Shown piece by piece: positions 139-12,061 of a stretch of 64,000 nucleotides of DNA. This DNA comes from Chlorobiaceae bacterium (GTDB lineage Bacteria > Bacteroidota > Chlorobiia > Chlorobiales > Chlorobiaceae). The notes under the pieces are model-generated. The model saw nothing but the letters and a program-made list of their open reading frames with translations. It made no database searches and was not told the origin of the DNA. The position numbers were made by a program, and so were the translations under genes. Each line of letters begins with the position of its first letter. Within the stretch, counting starts at the first letter, position 1. Where the stretch lies: contig JAAXWQ010000002.1 of the NCBI GenBank assembly GCA_013335115.1, positions 1 to 64,000 on the forward strand. The letters are read 5' to 3'.

Positions 139-3100
139 GAAACACCCCCACGCGTGTGGGGAAGACCCGAGACCTTGACGGCGAACGTCGGCGGGATGTT
201 GAAACACCCCCACGCGTGTGGGGAAGACGACTCGTGCAGGATGTCGGCCGTCCTCTGGACGGAAACACCCCCACGCGTGTGGGGAAGACTCGCTGTACTG
301 CTTTTCTTCAGCGTCACAGTCAGAAACACCCCCACGCGTGTGGGGAAGACTAGCCCAGCGCCTCGGCGTCGCCGAACGCACTGGAAACACCCCCACGCGT
401 GTGGGGAAGACGAACCGCTCTGCCTGCTCGAGGGTCGGGAACCGGAAACACCCCCACGCGTGTGGGGAAGACTCGATACGTGCCGGGATCATGTCGAGGT
501 CCTCGGAAACACCCCCACGCGTGTGGGGAAGACGCTCTTTGGCCCTGTCGAGAAACCATTCCATGAGAAACACCCCCACGCGTGTGGGGAAGACAAGAGA
601 GGCTTCATGCATGCACCGAATGGCCCAGAAACACCCCCACGCGTGTGGGGAAGACCCGCGGACCTGCACCTCGACCGCTTTGAACGGGGAAACACCCCCA
701 CGCGTGTGGGGAAGACTGATGCGGTGGCGGGCTTGTCGAAGATGTAGAGGAAACACCCCCACGCGTGTGGGGAAGACAACTCGCCGGCAGCCTCCTTGAG
801 TTTGCCCTGGGAAACACCCCCACGCGTGTGGGGAAGACCACCCGCTACCGGAGTTCGAGCCTTCATTCTAGGAAACACCCCCACGCGTGTGGGGAAGACG
901 AGTACCGCGAGCCGCACCGGTCCATTATCCTGGAAACACCCCCACGCGTGTGGGGAAGACCTGTAAAGGTCGCGTGTGTCATCTCAGTCTCCGGAAACAC
1001 CCCCACGCGTGTGGGGAAGACCGTGCGTCGGTTGGGAAAGCACGGAAGCCGTAGGAAACACCCCCACGCGTGTGGGGAAGACGTTCCTCATTCTGGGGTA
1101 ACGCTTGGGTAGTCAGAAACACCCCCACGCGTGTGGGGAAGACGAAGAGTTTCATAGCGCATACGACAAGGATACAGAAACACCCCCACGCGTGTGGGGA
1201 AGACGTCGCTGATCGCGTCCATGGGTGCCCTCTGGTAGAAACACCCCCACGCGTGTGGGGAAGACGCCGCACGCATGATCTCGACAGCCTGTAAATCGGA
1301 AACACCCCCACGCGTGTGGGGAAGACAGAGTGGAGCTTGTGCGATCCTGCCTCATGGGAGAAACACCCCCACGCGTGTGGGGAAGACCGATCCCGGTGGT
1401 CCCGGTGCTCGGCAAGGAGGGAAACACCCCCACGCGTGTGGGGAAGACTTAAGATCAGCGACTTCGCGCTGATGAGCAGTAGAAACACCCCCACGCGTGT
1501 GGGGAAGACCCTCCTTATTTGAGAGCTTTCAGGAGCTCGATGGAAACACCCCCACGCGTGTGGGGAAGACAACTTCTCCATGTTGATCCACGCCTGCCCG
1601 CTGGAAACACCCCCACGCGTGTGGGGAAGACACCATGCAAAGATAAAGTACCAATAGCAGAAAGAGAAACACCCCCACGCGTGTGGGGAAGACACCTGTG
1701 GACGAATGTGCAGAAGGTCGCGGCTGGAAACACCCCCACGCGTGTGGGGAAGACGAGACCGGTGGAGCTTCCTGAATAAAAGTAGAAGAAACACCCCCAC
1801 GCGTGTGGGGAAGACCACTATGTGTGTATACCAGATTGGTGGTGTACGGAAACACCCCCACGCGTGTGGGGAAGACTCGCTGAGTTCCTCGGCGTCGCCG
1901 TCAAGGTCGGAAACACCCCCACGCGTGTGGGGAAGACTCTATCGTGTAGATGACGGACCATAGCCTGTCGGAAACACCCCCACGCGTGTGGGGAAGACTC
2001 AGGACCATCGCCCAAATCAACAAGAGATGAAGAAACACCCCCACGCGTGTGGGGAAGACGTTAAATCAGCATAAAGACCAGAGGTCCACGAAGAAACACC
2101 CCCACGCGTGTGGGGAAGACTTCCCCAAGACCACAGGGTTCCATCAGTCTTTGGAAACACCCCCACGCGTGTGGGGAAGACGACCGCGTAATGGCTCAAA
2201 AACAGCGGAGGGCGGAAACACCCCCACGCGTGTGGGGAAGACTCTTGATTGGGCTTCCGATTCTCGGCATACTTAGAAACACCCCCACGCGTGTGGGGAA
2301 GACGGTGCGCCCTCGCCGTCGGCCAGCAGCATGTAAGAAACACCCCCACGCGTGTGGGGAAGACTCTCCCTCTGGTGAGCTTATTCTGATAACCGTAGAA
2401 ACACCCCCACGCGTGTGGGGAAGACTTCAATCCTTGGCCGTCGGCATCGTTTCCGTAGGAAACACCCCCACGCGTGTGGGGAAGACCACCGGTAGCCGGG
2501 ACAACCCGACCGGAATCCAGAAACACCCCCACGCGTGTGGGGAAGACCGTAAAAGCCGCTTTCTTCGCTAAGTACGGCAGAAACACCCCCACGCGTGTGG
2601 GGAAGACGCCGGCGCCGGCTTCGGCGTCGACTCGGTTATGGAAACACCCCCACGCGTGTGGGGAAGACGAGTTCGCTATGGCGCGCGCCGGGCGCGACGT
2701 GGAAACACCCCCACGCGTGTGGGGAAGACGGTCGCGTTGCCCATAGCGCAGGCATCGATTGAGAAACACCCCCACGCGTGTGGGGAAGACCCGCACGTAC
2801 TCCCGAGTGGTGCGAGCACTCGGGAAACACCCCCACGCGTGTGGGGAAGACGGCGATCTCGGAGAAGTTCGACGAGGGGGACAAGAAACACCCCCACGCG
2901 TGTGGGGAAGACCGGTACTTCGTCCCTTGCCCTCACTGCGGGGAGGAAACACCCCCACGCGTGTGGGGAAGACCGGATGAGGAACAAAAGGAACGACAGG
3001 GAACAAGAAACACCCCCACGCGTGTGGGGAAGACTCGATGACGATGGTCTCAACGCCGTGCAAAAAGGAAACACCCCCACGCGTGTGGGGAAGACTCCTC

Positions 3101-3766
3101 TTCAACGATTGATGGCGGAACGTTCTAAGAAACACCCCCACGCGTGTGGGGAAGACTTTCTTTTTCTTTTTCTACATATCGGGAAATTAGAAACACCCCC
3201 ACGCGTGTGGGGAAGACAGCTCGGTCCCGTCTCGAAGCGGGACGAGGATGGAAACACCCCCACGCGTGTGGGGAAGACGCCATCAAGCGCAAGGATGACG
3301 ACGTCCATCCAGAAACACCCCCACGCGTGTGGGGAAGACCCGGTGACGGAGATCGCCGCCGGCCACCTGACGGAAACACCCCCACGCGTGTGGGGAAGAC
3401 TCCCCCGCTCCATCAAGCGCCTCCTCTGTCTCAGAAACACCCCCACGCGTGTGGGGAAGACCTCTCGGCCTTTGCCGTCAACGTCTGGCACACGGAAACA
3501 CCCCCACGCGTGTGGGGAAGACGACGACAGTGTATAACGCGTATCCCATTTACGAGAAACACCCCCACGCGTGTGGGGAAGACCTGGCTCCGAAAAAACA
3601 GAGCCTCAGCCGGGTGGAAACACCCCCACGCGTGTGGGGAAGACTTGCTGAGAAACGACTACTGGGGAAAAGGCCTAGAAACACCCCCACGCGTGTGGGG
3701 AAGACTTGCGGCCCTGATGGAGATCGGCGGCGAAGTCGGAAACACCCCCACGCGTGTGGGGAAGAC
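139..3766 (-). CRISPR. Type I-E CRISPR array: 60 repeats, 59 spacers. Repeat on the + strand is GAAACACCCCCACGCGTGTGGGGAAGAC; in inferred crRNA sense it is GTCTTCCCCACACGCGTGGGGGTGTTTC, with a 29th base supplied by the spacer/PAM
   Basis: Exact 28-nt repeat read in every line from 139 to 3766, period 61 nt. Spacers are 33 nt, except two of 34 nt (167-200, 1632-1665) and one of 32 nt (2548-2579). The repeat contains a CCCCAC/GTGGGG stem. On the minus strand the 3' handle GTGTTTCY resembles type I-E handles. Adjacent to cas genes on the minus strand. Confidence 0.98.
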
Positions 3767-3811
3767 ACTGGAATTTACAAGGGTTTGCCGGCGTCGGGCA
3801 AATTGTTGACA
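3767..3811 (-). promoter_or_regulatory. Candidate CRISPR leader overlapping the 3' end of cas2, with an IHF-like motif TGTCAACAATTTG at 3799-3811 (minus strand)
   Basis: Only 8 bp separate the cas2 stop from the first repeat. TGTCAACAATTTG differs from the IHF consensus WATCAANNNNTTR at one fixed position. Confidence 0.3.
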
Positions 3812-4098
3812 GGAATTTCTGCAGACTTTTCAATCACCAGCTGCAAGCCGGAGAGTTCGATGAGGCCTTTTCGCGTATCCCCCATTCCGTAAACTTCATA
3901 GCCTGGGGCCGTATTGGAGCTATTGAAAATCATGACGCCGCTCTTCGGCGGACAGTGCTTGTGAAGATAGTCCACAACCTTTTTTGCAAGACTGTCTTTT
4001 GCGCCAGAGACAAAGATGTTTGCCCTCGGCTCGATGAACCAGAGCTTCATTCTTCCGCGAACAGCGGGAGGAAGGTCATTGGCTATCACGACGAGCAT
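3775..4098 (-). CDS. cas2: CRISPR-associated endoribonuclease Cas2 (type I-E)
   Basis: MLVVIANDLPPAVRGRMKLWFIEPRANIFVSG matches the Cas2e N-terminal pattern; overlaps the cas1 end. Confidence 0.95.
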   Translation of the reverse strand: MLVVIANDLPPAVRGRMKLWFIEPRANIFVSGAKDSLAKKVVDYLHKHCPPKSGVMIFNSSNTAPGYEVYGMGDTRKGLIELSGLQLVIEKSAEIPVNNLPDAGKPL

Positions 4099-4979
4099 TG
4101 CTTTTTGCCGAGTATGGTTTCGATGTCAGGGCCGATTCTGCCGAGAAGGTCGATTTCGATGACGTTCTTCCTGAATGCCGTGGCGATTTTGTGCCGGTCG
4201 TAATAGCCGGCCATCTCGGCAGTCAGGGAAAATGCGAGTTCAATAGAGAGCTGTTGTTTGTAAAGATCGGCAAGGTCATAAATGAATGGTAGCGGACTTC
4301 CTGAGTGAATGAAGCCTATGTGTGGCGAGTAGCCCATGCTGTGTACCGCAGATGAAATGATGCTATACAATGCAGCGTTGGCGGCCGTCAGAATCCTGTT
4401 CGTGGTGTCGCTCATTTCAAATTGTCCTGGTACGAACCGCCTGCCTGTCCATCCGACGTTGTACTTTTCAGCCATCTGTTCGTAGAATTTCCGTACGCGT
4501 AACCCTTCCATGCCCATCATCTGCTGGAGCGATTTTTTCTGCAGGTCGGCATCGGGGAAGCGATAAGCAAAGAGCCTCCGAGCAACCTCAATGGATTTTG
4601 CCGGGTTGGCGGCAAGCATCATCTGATGGTGCATGTTCCTCGTATTGCTTGTCGGGGTTTGACCACTGGCATAAAACATCATGCTGTCATCGCCGACCCA
4701 GCAAATACCGCAATTGGCTGCCGCCATTACCTTTACCGCTTCATGTGTGACTGTGGTTCCCGGGCCTAACAGTATGCAATTCAGCATAGCAACGGGAATC
4801 CGAACCACATTACAGTCACAATCAATCCATTTTATACTGCTATCGTCGATTTCCATCCGGCCCCGCTCCAAATAGATAAACGGGTACTTCTCCTTAACCT
4901 GTGGCAGGGTATCTCGTGTTACTTTGATAAGAAGTCTTGCCGGATTTCCTTCGTTGGCAATCTGCTCATTCCTACCCAT
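4086..4979 (-). CDS. cas1: CRISPR-associated endonuclease Cas1 (type I-E)
   Basis: Cas1 motifs MMGMEGLRVRKFY, GFIHSG, FIYDLADLYK; 297 aa. Confidence 0.97.
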   Translation of the reverse strand: MGRNEQIANEGNPARLLIKVTRDTLPQVKEKYPFIYLERGRMEIDDSSIKWIDCDCNVVRIPVAMLNCILLGPGTTVTHEAVKVMAAANCGICWVGDDSMMFYASGQTPTSNTRNMHHQMMLAANPAKSIEVARRLFAYRFPDADLQKKSLQQMMGMEGLRVRKFYEQMAEKYNVGWTGRRFVPGQFEMSDTTNRILTAANAALYSIISSAVHSMGYSPHIGFIHSGSPLPFIYDLADLYKQQLSIELAFSLTAEMAGYYDRHKIATAFRKNVIEIDLLGRIGPDIETILGKKQCSS

Positions 4980-5670
4980 TGTTGTTGTAAATGATGGTTA
5001 CCCTTCGTTCGCGATACTTTTTTCTTGTACCGAACTGCACCGGAACATCGTTCAGTATGACAATCTCTCCGTCATGCACGCCATCAAGCACACAGAATGC
5101 TTCGACAAGCGATTTTCCGGCGGCAATATGTGCTGCTTCTTCTAAGGCTGCCGCCTCCGATGCGAAACAGCCCCGGAAAATCAAGTCAGTCGGCACACAG
5201 CATTTCCTGCCGAGATAGACATCCCAAACAGGAGCCTGAAGCGCTTCGGAGCATTCGCGACCCATTGATTCCGGGACTTCCATAGCGACAGCAAAGGTAG
5301 CGTCCTGTAAATAGTAGCGGTAGGTCATTTTGGTTCCGCCGCCTACCGCTTTATCTCCATCGCGTTTTTTCGGAATCAACATCGTTTCCCATGGGTCGCT
5401 ATCATCAAAGCTACTGCCGACCATCTGAAAATCCCGGAGCAGCGGCGGACGGTCATCGTTCTTCCTGAAGGCCCGCACGGTCTGGCGGAGAGGTGCCAAG
5501 GCCGCGAGGAGTTCCCGCTGCTCGCCGCCTGCACCGAGGGCGCAGCAGAGAAGCCCGAGCAGGCCTGATTTGGTCGGAAAGTCAAGCGTGTCCCTCCGCC
5601 CGAACCGGGAGTCGTTTCCCCACGATTGCAACGGGGCTTCAAGCCATAACAGAATGACTGGATTGCTCAT
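4972..5670 (-). CDS. cas5e: Type I-E Cascade subunit Cas5e (CasD)
   Basis: MSNPVILLWLEAPLQSWGNDSRFGRRDTLDFPTKSGLLGLLCCALG is a typical Cas5e N-terminus. Confidence 0.95.
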   Translation of the reverse strand: MSNPVILLWLEAPLQSWGNDSRFGRRDTLDFPTKSGLLGLLCCALGAGGEQRELLAALAPLRQTVRAFRKNDDRPPLLRDFQMVGSSFDDSDPWETMLIPKKRDGDKAVGGGTKMTYRYYLQDATFAVAMEVPESMGRECSEALQAPVWDVYLGRKCCVPTDLIFRGCFASEAAALEEAAHIAAGKSLVEAFCVLDGVHDGEIVILNDVPVQFGTRKKYRERRVTIIYNNNG

Positions 5671-6707
5671 GATTTCGCTTCGATAAAGTTCCTGATTTCC
5701 TCGACCAGCCGGTCGATGCTGAACGCCTCATCTTCGCCGAAGGTGAACTCCCGCTCCTTTCCGAACAGCGATCCAGCAAGCCTCTCTTTTTTGCGGAGAT
5801 ATTCGCCGAGTGCGACGATACTCGGCTGGAGGAATCCGCCATTTTCGGCTTTGACGGCAGTCTCGAAAGGAACCTGGAGTCGTTGGCCTTTGCGGATGTA
5901 AATTTTCGCAAACTCCCATGGCGATGCGCCCGACTGCGTAGCCTGGCGTGCACTCGGGACGGCGACGAAGAGCGCCATCGTAAAAGCATCAACAGCTTCA
6001 GCAAGATCCTGACCGCCAAGGTTCTCCCATAGCTGTCCAAGGTCGAGGCTGATGTAGCGATAGTAAGTTGCGGAATTGAACTCGAGGCTGCCCATGTGTG
6101 CCGAACCCGGCTCTTCGGCCCAATCGTCGAGGGCAGTAAAGAACTCGACCTCGTTGCTCACCTTGTGGGTAGAGAGAGCATGGGAGAACGACGAGGCGGC
6201 TTCGATGTTCAATTCGGCAGCCTGGGCGACCATCCGGCCGAAAAGGGCGATATCCAGACCATCTTTGGCGGGATTGAGCACTTTTTTCGAAATTTTCACC
6301 AATTCCTTGTCGCTGAGCTTTCCTGCGTCAAACTCTTTTTCCGCAGCGTATTGCGCCAGAGCGTTTGCTTCCGTTTCACTGAAGAAAAAAAGAGTATCGT
6401 TACTAAATGTTTCGGCAATCTTTTCTCCGCACGCTCTGGCAAGCTCATTGTCAGCTCCAAGTGCGACACAGGCGTTAGCCGTGTAACCGGCGATTTTTTT
6501 ACTCCGGATGCCAATCCTGACGCCGAGCTCGTGCATGGCAAGACGCACCTGCCGTTTCCAGCACTGAGAGCTGACCCGCGCACGGGTATTGCCCCCGATC
6601 ATGGCGGTTTTCGGAGCGCCGACATCGTCCCTGTTCAGGCAGGTGACGGGAAATGACTGGATGATGTGGAACTCGATACGATGGCCCTTGAATGGATTGT
6701 TGTTCAT
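5667..6707 (-). CDS. cas7e: Type I-E Cascade subunit Cas7e (CasC/Cse4)
   Basis: IEFHIIQSFPVTCLNRDDVGAPKTAMIGGNTRARVSSQCWKRQVRLAM is a Cas7e/Cse4 signature. Confidence 0.96.
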   Translation of the reverse strand: MNNNPFKGHRIEFHIIQSFPVTCLNRDDVGAPKTAMIGGNTRARVSSQCWKRQVRLAMHELGVRIGIRSKKIAGYTANACVALGADNELARACGEKIAETFSNDTLFFFSETEANALAQYAAEKEFDAGKLSDKELVKISKKVLNPAKDGLDIALFGRMVAQAAELNIEAASSFSHALSTHKVSNEVEFFTALDDWAEEPGSAHMGSLEFNSATYYRYISLDLGQLWENLGGQDLAEAVDAFTMALFVAVPSARQATQSGASPWEFAKIYIRKGQRLQVPFETAVKAENGGFLQPSIVALGEYLRKKERLAGSLFGKEREFTFGEDEAFSIDRLVEEIRNFIEAKS

Positions 6708-6719
6708 GGATAGTAGGGG

Positions 6720-7343
6720 TTAGTGGTTTGAAATATCTTTGATCGGTTCGATCTGCAAGAGCCCGAAGCCGAATGCCCGACCGCGGCCGATGCCTCTCCT
6801 GAAGCTCTCCATAAAGAGGTCGCGGTTGTTGACATGGAGCACTCCCGAAATCCTGGAGGCTCCATGGGTGAGTTGGTGGCTCTGCTTGGAGAATTGCCTG
6901 ACAGGCAGCATCCGGACATCAAGCCGTTCAGGGTCAACACTGAATCCCCACGACGTTAGCGACTTGCCACTGAACCATGTCGTCACCTCTTCACGGCTCT
7001 TGATGGGGACTCTTTTACCTTGACGATCTTTTTTCGTAGGGTTGAGCGTAACCTCGAACTTGTAGGACTGGTGCTTGAGGAACTCCTCGGGGACAGGCGA
7101 GGAGTTCAGCTCTCCATGCGCCGGCGGCAACGGGTGCCTGTCCGAAAGGATGAGGATTTTCCGGCTCATGGCATCACCGCCTTTGTCGGCGAAAAGAAAG
7201 CCGCTGGGAATGCTCGCCTGCTTCTCTTCGTCAGACCGGATATCTTCGAAGAGGCTATAGACAACACGGTGAAGCGAATAGTCGTCTGTCAGGCGCAATG
7301 CCATGATGTCTTTTCTGGTGAGGGTAAGAATGCTTGCGATCAT
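6720..7343 (-). CDS. cas6e: Type I-E crRNA endonuclease Cas6e (CasE/Cse3)
   Basis: MIASILTLTRKDIMALRLTDDYSLHRVVYSLF and C-terminal RGIGRGRAFGFGLLQIEPI (glycine-rich loop). Internal Met chosen as start. Confidence 0.93.
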   Translation of the reverse strand: MIASILTLTRKDIMALRLTDDYSLHRVVYSLFEDIRSDEEKQASIPSGFLFADKGGDAMSRKILILSDRHPLPPAHGELNSSPVPEEFLKHQSYKFEVTLNPTKKDRQGKRVPIKSREEVTTWFSGKSLTSWGFSVDPERLDVRMLPVRQFSKQSHQLTHGASRISGVLHVNNRDLFMESFRRGIGRGRAFGFGLLQIEPIKDISNH

Positions 7344-7876
7344 GCAGCCTCCCCTTCTTTCACGTTTTCGGAGGATTGTCGGTAGAAATCGAGTGCCCAC
7401 GCTGATTTGACCCGATTACTGTCGTAGCCAAAGCTCACAAGTTGCCTGAGCAGTCTGGCGTAGTCAATCGATATCTGGGTTTTTGTTTCGATTAGGCTTA
7501 AAATCGGGCGAAGGATACGGCACGCTTCCGGCACAGAATTGCAGGCAAGCAGCCTCCGGATCCTGGCTTTTGCCTGCTCGCTCTTGCATTTTTCATCATA
7601 GCAAAAGGCGATAGCCTTGCCGATGCCCGATGTGCCGTTGCTGTCGATTTTTGCTCTGGCAATGGCTGCGGCGATGGTGGCATAAGGAATCCGCTCGAAC
7701 CGGTTCTCAAGATTGATGGAAAAGCGTGCAAGATATTCCCAGCTCTGGTATTCAGTGGCAGGATTGTCGGCGCGGCGCAGCGCGGCAGCCGCCCCTTTGT
7801 CCTTCTGGCAAAGCCCTATCACATACTGCACGAAGGCTTCCGGCCTGCCGGTTTTCTTGTCGTTCTCACTGTTCAT
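7340..7876 (-). CDS. cse2: Type I-E Cascade small subunit Cse2 (CasB)
   Basis: Position between cse1 and cas6e, size about 178 aa, and CasB-like composition (WEYLARFSINLENRFERIPYATIAAAIARA). The ORF's longer N-terminus overlaps cse1 and is rejected. Confidence 0.88.
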   Translation of the reverse strand: MNSENDKKTGRPEAFVQYVIGLCQKDKGAAAALRRADNPATEYQSWEYLARFSINLENRFERIPYATIAAAIARAKIDSNGTSGIGKAIAFCYDEKCKSEQAKARIRRLLACNSVPEACRILRPILSLIETKTQISIDYARLLRQLVSFGYDSNRVKSAWALDFYRQSSENVKEGEAA

Positions 7877-7889
7877 GACCATTGAATGT

Positions 7890-9470
7890 TCAGTTGTTAA
7901 TGAAAGATCTCGACAGGTCCGGCCGGCATGCCGCCCACGCATCAATCTGACGCGCTGTCTCCTTCGGGCAGAATGCGTCGAATGACTGCAAGGCAAGTGC
8001 GGCAATGGTTTTCCCAATGGCAGGAAGCCTTGCTGGCTCATAGCAGGCATCAACCAGCTCCTGGAATCGCCGTTCGCTGAGTTGCCAGAAGAGAGCCGTC
8101 GCGTTGGAGGCTAGCGCGCCGCCATCCATATTTTGGCTGGCGAAATACTTTTTTGTCGCCGAATAGACCATTTTAGAGAATCGGTCGAGTCGCGCCATCT
8201 CTTGCTGGAACCGGGAGTACCAGAGTTCATCGATGGCGGTGGAATCGAAGAGGATGAGGGACTCGACAAAATCGTTGTCCTGTTTGACCGATTGGTCTCC
8301 TGCGTTTGCACTAACACGAAGCCCTCCTGACCAAATGCCGATCTGCTGATGGCGCTGTTTGGCCCGCGCAAGTCCGTATTTAATGAACTGGCATTCATAT
8401 CCACTGTTGGCATTGTTTCCAAGGAAGGCCAGCATTGAGGGAAGTTCACGCCATGGGCGTTTGTCTGGATCGACCCAGACCACCTTGGGCTGATTATCCT
8501 GAAACTGGACCATCATGCCTGGCTCTCTCCAGCCCTCCTTGTGGCTAGGATATTGAAGCCCTTCGACGTAGTAAATGCCCTCTCCTTCCAGGAGGACGAA
8601 ACGCGATAGAGCAACCAGCGTCGCCATGTAGGACCCATTCAGATTGGTGGCTACAGGGCACGTTTCACCTTCCGGCATCAGTTCCCAAGGGGGCGTACCG
8701 AGGCCAAATTTCCAGTAAGGGTTAGCGCTGATCTGTTCCCGTGAAAGCAGGTTCAGTAGAAGGGTGTCGAGCAAGGCTGGACCGGTAAGGAACGAGTGAA
8801 GGTAGCCAATGTAGTTGCCGATGCTCGGCCCCGCTTTGGCAGAAACCGATTTTCCCATAAATCCGGGACTGAGTGGGGTTAGGTTTTTTTCGATTCTCTT
8901 TCCACCTAAGGCGAAGTTCATGAGCGTAACGACAAAGAGCGCCATTCCGGCAGGATCGCTGGTTTCAGCAATCTGGAACTGGCTGAGGATTGTATTGTTT
9001 TCAGCTGGCATGTCGGGGTAGAAGCCCATGCCGATGGGCCGGGGAAAAGCGTTTAGCTCTGCCTGTTTCTCGGCAGCCTCCTTTTTCCTGACCGGAGCGG
9101 AAGGTGCGGATTTTAGTTCTCGTTGCTTTCTCTCCTCAATCAGCTTCTTGACGGACGGCATCTGCAGAAATGGCTTTTCTCCGTATAGCCAAAAGCGGTC
9201 GTACCACTTTTCGAGATAACGGAGACACTCTACGTGGAATGTCTCTACGTCGAGCTTTTCAAGCTCCTCCGTGCTCTCCGGCGTGCAGGCCGCCTGGCCG
9301 ATGGCCAGCAGAAGCTTGGTGAGGGCGATTTTCTGCACGGGGTTACCGCCGAGGGCAGGAAGGGTCGGATCGCTGAAAATCTCGCCGAGGCTTGCACGCC
9401 CTTTGCCAATGACCGGAATCCACGGTTCATCGATCAGGTTGAAACGATTTTGCATGGCTGTTTTTTCCAT
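7890..9470 (-). CDS. cse1: Type I-E Cascade large subunit Cse1 (CasA/Cas8e)
   Basis: RFNLIDEPWIPVIG N-terminus and GTPPWELMPEG; 526 aa. Confidence 0.95.
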   Translation of the reverse strand: MEKTAMQNRFNLIDEPWIPVIGKGRASLGEIFSDPTLPALGGNPVQKIALTKLLLAIGQAACTPESTEELEKLDVETFHVECLRYLEKWYDRFWLYGEKPFLQMPSVKKLIEERKQRELKSAPSAPVRKKEAAEKQAELNAFPRPIGMGFYPDMPAENNTILSQFQIAETSDPAGMALFVVTLMNFALGGKRIEKNLTPLSPGFMGKSVSAKAGPSIGNYIGYLHSFLTGPALLDTLLLNLLSREQISANPYWKFGLGTPPWELMPEGETCPVATNLNGSYMATLVALSRFVLLEGEGIYYVEGLQYPSHKEGWREPGMMVQFQDNQPKVVWVDPDKRPWRELPSMLAFLGNNANSGYECQFIKYGLARAKQRHQQIGIWSGGLRVSANAGDQSVKQDNDFVESLILFDSTAIDELWYSRFQQEMARLDRFSKMVYSATKKYFASQNMDGGALASNATALFWQLSERRFQELVDACYEPARLPAIGKTIAALALQSFDAFCPKETARQIDAWAACRPDLSRSFINN

Positions 9471-9475
9471 GGCGG

Positions 9476-12061
9476 CTATGGTTTAACGTATTGGTATCCC
9501 AAGCGGGAATTGTAGCTCAGTTCGTATGACTCCGACGCTCTGCCCATGCCCGGTAATTTCAGCCTGCCATCGTCACCCACGATGGCGACGCGCAGAATGC
9601 TTTCGCTCCGCGAGGGGTCGCCGAGGTAGAAGTATGGCTTGAGCCAAGAGAGCATGTTGCGTCCAAGCACGTCGGGCGCGGCGTACTCGGCGATCTGAAT
9701 GGTTTGCGTGGCGAGGATGGCGGCCAACTTCCGTTGCTCTGTTTTCGAATCCGCCGTGAATTGCCACGGGAGGTGGAGTGAGCGTCCATCGAGGAGCACC
9801 ACTGTGGTTGCGCCCGCTACGTGATCGTGGCTTACCGTTTTCAGCAAAAGCAACTCGATGGAGTCGATGTCGCTGTAACGAGTGCTGACCGTGGTATCGG
9901 GTTTGGCGCCAAGGTTCATCGATACGCCCTGAAGCGCAAAGCGTTCGAGCGTATCCTTTCGATTCTGGAGGTCGGCTTTGAGTTTTGACATCGCCTCGCT
10001 CTCCGCCCTCGGTTCGTAGGTGCGTTCGAGAAGCCCGCGAATATCGCCCGGCAGAGACAGTTTTTCCAAACAACTCCAGACCTGAAGGGTGCGCAGAAGC
10101 ACGTAAGGACTATAGACTTTTGCGGTTTTGCCGAATGCGTTGTCGGGGTCTTGCTCCGCTTTATCGAACACCGCACTGATAAGCCATGTTTCGCAAGTCG
10201 CGCCTGCCGGGCGTTGGTGGAAATCGTGCCGCCACAAGCGTCCGATGCGTTGCAGGAGCATGTCGGTCGGACAGAGGCGCGTAACGAGGAAATCAGCGTC
10301 GATGTCGAGGGATTGTTCAAGCACTTGTGTTCCGACAAGGATACGTCCTCTTTCGCCCCGGAACGCCGAGTCTTTTGCTCCGTATCGTGTAACCCAATAC
10401 TCTTCAAGCGCCTCACGGTCGGCATGAATGAAGCGCGAATGGAGGAGGCCGCACTCGATTTCCGTTCCATCGGATCTGGCGGCAAGAATTTTATAGGCCT
10501 GTTGTGCCTCGGCGACGGTATTTTCGATCCAGAGAACCTGTTGGCCGGCATCCGCCCGATCGAGTGCTGCTTCGTAAGCTACTTCGACGTCCAGAATTGA
10601 GCGGATACTTACCGTTTTCTCATCAAGGGATTCCGGAACGATTTCAATCGGTTCAAGCTTACCGGATGGCAGTGCGGAGATGACGGGGTATGGCGCCGCT
10701 GTATTTTTATTTATTCCAAGAAGCCTGCATCGGCGCTCATGGGTGAGCGTTGCGCTCAGAATAATAATGGTGCAATGCAGTTGCCGCAGTTCATCAACCA
10801 ATCGATCGAGGATGGTGCCTGTATAGGCGTCGTAGGCATGGACTTCGTCGAGGATGACGACCTTTCCGGCAAGTCCAAAAGTACGGACGAAGCCGTGTTT
10901 CACATTCATGGCAGCCATCAGCGCCTGATCGATCGTGCCGACGGCAAATGGCGCAAGCAAGCCTCTTTTGGCGGTGTTGAACCAAGCACCTCCGGGGGCG
11001 CCATCCTGACCGAGTTCAAATTCTTTCAACCTCGCATTACCGTGTAGCAGGAACGCTTCCCGGTGGAGGGAATGTGGCTCAAGCACTCTTTCAAGAAATT
11101 GATTCACCCGCAAATGAATGCGGTTTGAGGTCAGTTGTGTCGGCAGCGCGAAGTAAATACCGGTTGCCTGTCCGGACGAAACAATGGAGTAGGCCGCGTA
11201 AAGGGCTGCTTCGGTTTTGCCGATACCCATTGGGGCTTCAAGGATATAGGTGCCGGAAAGCGATGCCTGTTCGATAAGGCTCTGCTGGGTCCTCCTCGCT
11301 TCGAAATCGAAAATATCCCTGAACGAAAGGCCCTGGATTAATTTTGGGGAGATGAAACCTGCCGCATCAACAGCGGAGACGATCCTGTCTTTCCAGGATG
11401 CTTCGGGATTATCGAATGCCGAGCCTGAACCAATCCAGTCCGCAACGGAGGTGAGACCGGCAAGCACTCGGGCCTGAAGAAAATTCCGGATTAGGGGGAA
11501 ACGCTCGTCGAAGGACTTCCCGAGCATTTCCATCAACGCGTTCCTCTGATTTTGCCAAGCAGGGCCACCGAATTGCTCGGCATCAGCGGAACGGGCATTT
11601 GTGTTTGGAGAATAGCCGTGGTGACAACCGGCTATGGACGGGATGAATTTACCGGGGTTCAGTGCCTCCAAGGCGCATTGGCTAACTCCGGCATGACCAC
11701 CCCAACATTTATTTTCATCGAGTGATGGATCGACATTGTGAAGATTTTCAAGGATCGAAGGAGCGGCATTATCAATTGCTGAATGGATTTTCTTCTGGAA
11801 CGTCGGACTTACCTTGCCGAGATCATGGCAGGCAGCAACCAATGCGGAGCCTTCCGGAAAAAATGAATGCTGGAGGTAGTCGGGATATCGGGATATCATT
11901 TCTTTTGCGACCTCTCCGACAATGAGGCAATGATCGAATACTGTTCTGCCAGCAACAGAGCGCCCAAAATCATTTATCCTCGATTTCGCAAGGCAAAGAT
12001 TTAATGATAGTGTCGGATTTTCAGCTGGAGCAACCGGTTTTTTTACCGTGGGATATCGCAT
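9476..12061 (-). CDS. cas3: CRISPR-associated helicase/nuclease Cas3 (HD plus DExH)
   Basis: HD region FDHCLIVGEVAKEM...ACHDLGKVSPTFQKKIH; Walker A EAPMGIGKTEAAL; DEVHAYD; SATLT. Confidence 0.96.
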   Translation of the reverse strand: MRYPTVKKPVAPAENPTLSLNLCLAKSRINDFGRSVAGRTVFDHCLIVGEVAKEMISRYPDYLQHSFFPEGSALVAACHDLGKVSPTFQKKIHSAIDNAAPSILENLHNVDPSLDENKCWGGHAGVSQCALEALNPGKFIPSIAGCHHGYSPNTNARSADAEQFGGPAWQNQRNALMEMLGKSFDERFPLIRNFLQARVLAGLTSVADWIGSGSAFDNPEASWKDRIVSAVDAAGFISPKLIQGLSFRDIFDFEARRTQQSLIEQASLSGTYILEAPMGIGKTEAALYAAYSIVSSGQATGIYFALPTQLTSNRIHLRVNQFLERVLEPHSLHREAFLLHGNARLKEFELGQDGAPGGAWFNTAKRGLLAPFAVGTIDQALMAAMNVKHGFVRTFGLAGKVVILDEVHAYDAYTGTILDRLVDELRQLHCTIIILSATLTHERRCRLLGINKNTAAPYPVISALPSGKLEPIEIVPESLDEKTVSIRSILDVEVAYEAALDRADAGQQVLWIENTVAEAQQAYKILAARSDGTEIECGLLHSRFIHADREALEEYWVTRYGAKDSAFRGERGRILVGTQVLEQSLDIDADFLVTRLCPTDMLLQRIGRLWRHDFHQRPAGATCETWLISAVFDKAEQDPDNAFGKTAKVYSPYVLLRTLQVWSCLEKLSLPGDIRGLLERTYEPRAESEAMSKLKADLQNRKDTLERFALQGVSMNLGAKPDTTVSTRYSDIDSIELLLLKTVSHDHVAGATTVVLLDGRSLHLPWQFTADSKTEQRKLAAILATQTIQIAEYAAPDVLGRNMLSWLKPYFYLGDPSRSESILRVAIVGDDGRLKLPGMGRASESYELSYNSRLGYQYVKP

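Follow-up and report, generated by a model that had tools for sequence, protein, structure and literature searches.

The type I-E CRISPR array in the 64,000-nucleotide stretch of Chlorobiaceae DNA analyzed here (the window) is extensively directed against a prophage that resides in the same genome, and the cas genes beside it look intact, indicating from their sequence an apparently complete system. The original prediction for this DNA concerned two adjacent spacers of the array, 45 and 46, which it read as consecutive pieces of a GpA-type phage terminase large subunit. We consider it likely that spacer 46, and probably spacer 45, correspond to neighboring same-strand stretches of one GpA terminase gene, carried by a tailed phage that is absent from the collections searched. 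The self-targeting is the more useful of the two results, and it also yields the PAM of the system and two prophages of the host.

The host genome (2,097,405 bp in 29 contigs) contains a gene for the FMO antenna protein, which identifies the host as a green sulfur bacterium. As listed in Table 1, the array is followed by eight cas genes, all of them full length and each scoring above the curated cut-off of its family or domain model, the models being specific for type I-E. The spacers are 33 nt long in 56 of the 59 cases. In the crRNA sense the repeat reads GTCTTCCCCACACGCGTGGGGGTGTTTC, and the crRNAs are therefore read from the minus strand, with the leader end on the cas2 side. The locus resembles other type I-E CRISPR-Cas systems in its full cas3-cse1-cse2-cas6-cas7-cas5-cas1-cas2 set, its 28-nt repeat, its spacers of about 33 nt, and a PAM that adjoins the 5' end of the crRNA. 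The identical 28-nt repeat also occurs in unrelated genomes (Lysobacterales, Rhodanobacter, Mailhella, and a deltaproteobacterial bin; L325-L331), which suggests either horizontal transfer or a strong constraint on the repeat.

Table 1. Features of the CRISPR-Cas locus and of individual spacers, in window coordinates.
Feature	Positions	Strand	Assignment and basis
Type I-E CRISPR array	139..3766	-	60 identical 28-nt repeats, 59 spacers; high-coordinate side is the leader side
Spacer 10	717..749	-	Exact match to C7 integrase gene, PAM AAC
Spacer 13	900..932	+	C7 integrase, 32/32 crRNA positions; sole mismatch at the PAM-derived base
Spacer 18	1205..1237	-	YQRAPMDAISD, GpA terminase N-terminal motif; profile, viral peptide matches
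Spacer 19	1266..1298	-	C7, 1 mismatch
Spacer 23	1510..1542	-	C20 tail-sheath region, 1 mismatch
Spacer 24	1571..1603	-	C7 terminase, 1 mismatch
Spacer 35	2243..2275	-	Exact match to C7, PAM AAT
Spacer 36	2304..2336	-	Exact match to C7 terminase large subunit (phrog_9), PAM AAT
Spacer 39	2487..2519	+	C7 terminase, 1 mismatch
Spacer 42	2669..2701	+	EFAMARAGRDV, GpA terminase nuclease region; C20 terminase has NFCTARAGRDV; 25/33 DNA identity to C20
Spacer 45	2852..2884	+	AISEKFDEGD(K/N), probable GpA terminase, covering the ten residues that immediately precede the zinc motif; PSSM, codon model
Spacer 46	2913..2945	+	RYFVPCPHCGE, GpA terminase zinc motif; peptide matches, profile score, DNA matches
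Spacer 48	3035..3067	-	C20 tail sheath, 4 mismatches, identical peptide
Spacer 55	3462..3494	-	Putative C7 excisionase gene, 1 mismatch
cas2e	3775..4098	-	TIGR01873
cas1e	4086..4979	-	TIGR03638
cas5e	4972..5670	-	TIGR01868
cas7e	5667..6707	-	TIGR01869
cas6e	6720..7343	-	TIGR01907
cse2 (cas11e)	7340..7876	-	TIGR02548
cse1 (cas8e)	7890..9470	-	TIGR02547
cas3, HD nuclease + helicase	9476..12061	-	TIGR01587, TIGR01596; Cas3e

The 3' end of cas2 (window positions 3775-3830) lies at most 8 nt from the first repeat, and within about 30 nt of it in relatives, a spacing so close that a leader, if there is one, must lie partly within the cas2 coding sequence. The junction between cas2 and the array, CCAGT followed by GTCTTCCCC, is near-universal among relatives with the same cas2. 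Since the array follows the cas2 stop codon almost directly in nearly all of these relatives, this arrangement is the normal layout of the locus and does not result from a deletion.

When all spacers were scanned against the host's own genome, 16 matches with six or fewer mismatches were obtained, and all 16 lie within two prophages, C7 and C20; the reversed spacers, which served as control, gave a best match with seven mismatches. C7 occupies positions 23,300-60,405 of a 263-kb chromosomal contig and is bounded on each side by the 13-bp direct repeat GCGTCCCCCCCAT. Prophage genes were called as simple ORF picks, and those of C7 include an integrase, an anti-repressor, a terminase (phrog_9), and a tape measure protein, in addition to the att-like repeat (loci L140-L142). 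Ten spacers match C7. Spacers 10, 35, and 36 do so exactly and spacer 13 is off only at the PAM-derived base, while spacers 19, 24, 39, and 55 have one mismatch, spacer 11 has two, and spacer 6 has four. With a limit of two mismatches, 10 of the 59 spacers match the host's own genome; a survey cited in PMC6990116 puts self-targeting spacers at 0.4%, under matching criteria that may differ from ours.

The PAM of the system was derived from these own-genome targets. It is 5'-AA at 10 of 10 target sites in C7, the kind of defined protospacer PAM that is expected of a type I-E system. In 58 of the 59 spacers (window positions 167-3738) the first base of the crRNA is C or T, and hence the PAM-derived base is a pyrimidine and the PAM is AAY. 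The system differs in this respect from type I-E of Escherichia coli, the PAM of which is AAG.

The second prophage, C20 (loci L118-L120), is myovirus-like, adjoins an rtcB-like gene, and encodes a GpA terminase, a tail sheath, and a primase. Its closest match is to spacer 23 (one mismatch), followed by spacer 48 (four), spacer 59 (five), and spacers 2, 51, and 53 (six each); the matches of spacers 29, 9, and 42 are weaker. Four spacers fall on the C20 tail sheath, where mismatches are often found at third codon positions. The peptides encoded by spacers 48, 53, and 59 are identical to C20 proteins, and the sources of these spacers thus look like relatives of C20 that are drifting at silent positions. 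The same pattern was seen in 29 viral relatives recovered from IMG/VR with the C20 tail sheath as query, which match spacers 2, 9, 23, 48, and 53 at 4-7 mismatches. The two prophages are otherwise dissimilar and have one small protein in common (C7 42533-42853, C20 33276-33518), characterized by a GQKVGKY...YTEAG.. motif; it is possibly a regulator, and any helix-turn-helix signal is weak at best and limited to the C7 copy.

An exact match to C7 next to a proper PAM implies that interference must be blocked or silent. Given the intact cas genes and the conserved leader context, survival of the cell would require a prophage-encoded anti-CRISPR, a system that is not expressed, or a mixed population. 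The reading that we prefer, and to which we give a nearly even chance, is that C7 or C20 encodes an undescribed type I-E anti-CRISPR, which would let the host keep prophages that its own spacers match exactly; C7 is a strong candidate for the carrier. Twenty small prophage proteins gave no match to the anti-CRISPR models in NCBIfam, 10 of these 20 gave none to the Pfam anti-CRISPR models, and phmmer searches with five small prophage proteins against the PDB returned nothing convincing; the absence of homologues is compatible with a new family. That none of the 20 scanned proteins belongs to a known anti-CRISPR family would also fit a system that is silent in this organism, either because it is not expressed, a property that is invisible from DNA, or because Cas3 or Cascade is weakened by substitutions, so that the prophages are tolerated without any anti-CRISPR. 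We regard such silence as somewhat unlikely, as the full-length cas genes with their above-cut-off scores and the conserved cas2/array junction speak against it, and the identical repeats and the length of the array suggest recent activity. Loss of the leader as the cause of self-tolerance was rejected, because the relatives have the same junction.

We turn to the terminase spacers. The letters and the coordinates of spacer 46 had been given correctly, CGGTACTTCGTCCCTTGCCCTCACTGCGGGGAG encoding RYFVPCPHCGE, and its assignment to a GpA-type terminase is well supported. When all synonymous codons were allowed, this peptide was found in 113 stretches of IMG/VR, with a GpA terminase context in those that were read. 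A blastn search against cultured phages returned mostly terminase genes (best match 26 of 30 bases), and the spacer scores 49.6 against a profile of 53 terminases. Its peptide is identical to the zinc motif of GpA-type terminases (Pfam GpA_ATPase PF05876; PHROG phrog_15), and the AA PAM fits this position well, as GAG-TTY encodes E-F, the residues found in 19 of the 113 homologues. It is very improbable that neither spacer is terminase-derived and that RYFVPCPHCGE arose by chance. The exact protospacer was not found and zinc ribbons also occur in other proteins, but the match extends over 11 residues of a family-specific motif, the top DNA matches are phage terminase genes, and spacers 18 and 42 match the same protein family.

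An exact protospacer of spacer 46, flanked by the PAM and within a terminase gene, was not found in the collections searched. The best DNA match (31 of 33 bases) is to L044, L064, and L082, which are three copies of one phage. This phage was rejected as the target: the flank is AT and not TT (ATC replaces the AA PAM), the residues upstream differ, and the other tested spacers have no match in these records. Among 98 Chlorobiales genomes, no match with three or fewer mismatches was found apart from the array itself. With the wrong flank at the best match and nothing in the Chlorobiales genomes, the real target of spacer 46 should lie outside these collections. The host's own GpA terminase, in C20, is distant at the motif site, where it reads HCYLPCPHCGF, strongly different from RYFVPCPHCGE.

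Spacer 45, GGCGATCTCGGAGAAGTTCGACGAGGGGGACAA, reads AISEKFDEGD in frame 2, as predicted for its first ten residues. The final lysine of that prediction is not fixed by the spacer, in which only AA is left of its codon; the G that completes the codon is the first base of the repeat, and the residue is accordingly K or N. We scored the ten residues with a PSSM built from 27 distinct terminase contexts over the ten columns that immediately precede RYFVPCPHCGE, a set that was selected for this exact peptide and holds few distinct terminases. The spacer 45 10-mer scores 12.0 bits and ranks first among 358 stop-free spacer 10-mers, the next of which scores 7.0; of 961,177 background viral 10-mers, 16 score as high or higher (1.7e-5). 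In other registers near the motif, spacer 45 scores below zero. A codon model that had C7 and C20 as its training set gives this frame 7.9 bits and the next one -0.06, and the frame and strand agree with those of spacer 46; among 17 spacers whose frame is known from homology, the model was right in 15 cases. The same layout as in spacers 45 and 46 together is present in a real viral terminase, LIWQEFLKGDKRRYFVPCP. The placement of spacer 45 just before the motif and on the same strand is thus probable from the position-specific score and the codon frame, although DNA carrying its protospacer was not found.

Some observations would instead fit a terminase origin of spacer 46 only, with spacer 45 coming from another gene or phage and its likeness a coincidence that was noticed because of the neighbor. 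When any register of the whole terminase is allowed, the score of spacer 45 is unremarkable and inside the null distribution (5.7% of null peptides equal it), so that the case for this spacer rests on the adjacency predicted beforehand. The AA PAM is a poor fit as well, for in the terminase register it requires N with F, L, S, Y, C, or W as the next residue, and the family nearly always has R there. Searches for spacer 45, exact or synonymous, returned nothing from phages, viral contigs, or the 98 Chlorobiales genomes, and a relaxed 8-residue version gave a single match, to an unrelated protein (L146), which was discarded. Against a coincidence stand the score at the predicted adjacent register, at which about 0.006 matches would be expected over the 358 array peptides, and the codon model, which independently selects the same frame and strand. 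We therefore judge a separate origin of spacer 45 to be unlikely.

On our reading that the two spacers derive from one terminase gene, spacer 45 would lie just upstream of spacer 46 and both would come from one phage, the second spacer having perhaps been acquired soon after the first by primed acquisition. The target phage is probably a relative of the myovirus-like prophage on C20: the C20-family spacers 42, 48, 51, 53, and 59 cluster around spacers 45 and 46 near the leader end, and on that basis the unseen target would belong to the C20 family. On this reading, the whole array records prolonged exposure to two families of temperate phage, both now resident as prophages. The stronger form of the original prediction, successive uptake from one phage, gained no direct support: neither protospacer turned up in the collections searched, and with them the single phage and the shared PAM are missing. 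No viral or genome contig, in scans several of which can omit records of this genome or its close relatives, holds both protospacers in one terminase ORF with a shared PAM; nor do the two spacers both match unrelated loci. Several candidate sources were rejected. Neither spacer 45 nor spacer 46 is carried by the host's own GpA prophage or by those of two relatives (G011 and G076), the 29 viral relatives of the C20 sheath match neither, and the C20 terminase as query retrieved distant relatives only.

Further blocks of the same GpA protein are fitted by spacers 18 and 42, and probably by spacer 45. Spacer 18 has a profile score of 30.3, compared with a maximum of 25.9 for 6,000 null peptides, and its exact peptide is present in seven viral contigs, in all seven within GpA terminase ORFs. 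The lineages to which spacers 18 and 46 point differ, and more than one phage may therefore be involved. The terminase of C7, which is unrelated to GpA, is targeted by spacers 24, 36, and 39 at the DNA level and by spacer 30 at the protein level. Terminase genes are seemingly over-represented among the assigned spacers, with four on the C7 terminase (C7 43571-45259) and three to four on GpA; this excess may reflect only a slower change of the gene.

A self-targeting array with intact cas genes is of a known kind. In Xanthomonas albilineans, which has extensively self-targeting type I systems, the anti-CRISPRs AcrIC11 and AcrIF12 blocked Cas3 (PMC10810201). Both organisms have many spacers that match their own genome alongside cas genes that look intact; the present case differs in being of type I-E, in having all of its targets in two prophages, and in that no anti-CRISPR was identified. 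For green sulfur bacteria, phages and prophages have been described both in Trout Bog Lake (PMC8163819) and in studies of single cells (PMC8226683). They resemble those found here in being temperate, in their high prevalence, and in the several array spacers per phage, and differ in that self-targeting of resident prophages was not found described in the text consulted. A limited literature search found no earlier report of self-targeting in green sulfur bacteria or the phylum Chlorobi.

The spacer pair had been put forward as a handle for finding a virus of green sulfur bacteria. It does provide a sequence handle, although the two prophages that the array targets already represent phages of this host. 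Spacers 18, 42, 45, and 46 together supply four terminase pieces with which to recognize an unseen green sulfur phage, or possibly more than one. Exact, PAM-flanked prophage targets that face a complete type I-E system form the pattern that yielded anti-CRISPR proteins elsewhere. If C7 or C20 does encode such a protein, the spacer pair 45 and 46 would be part of the trace left by a contest with C20-like phages.
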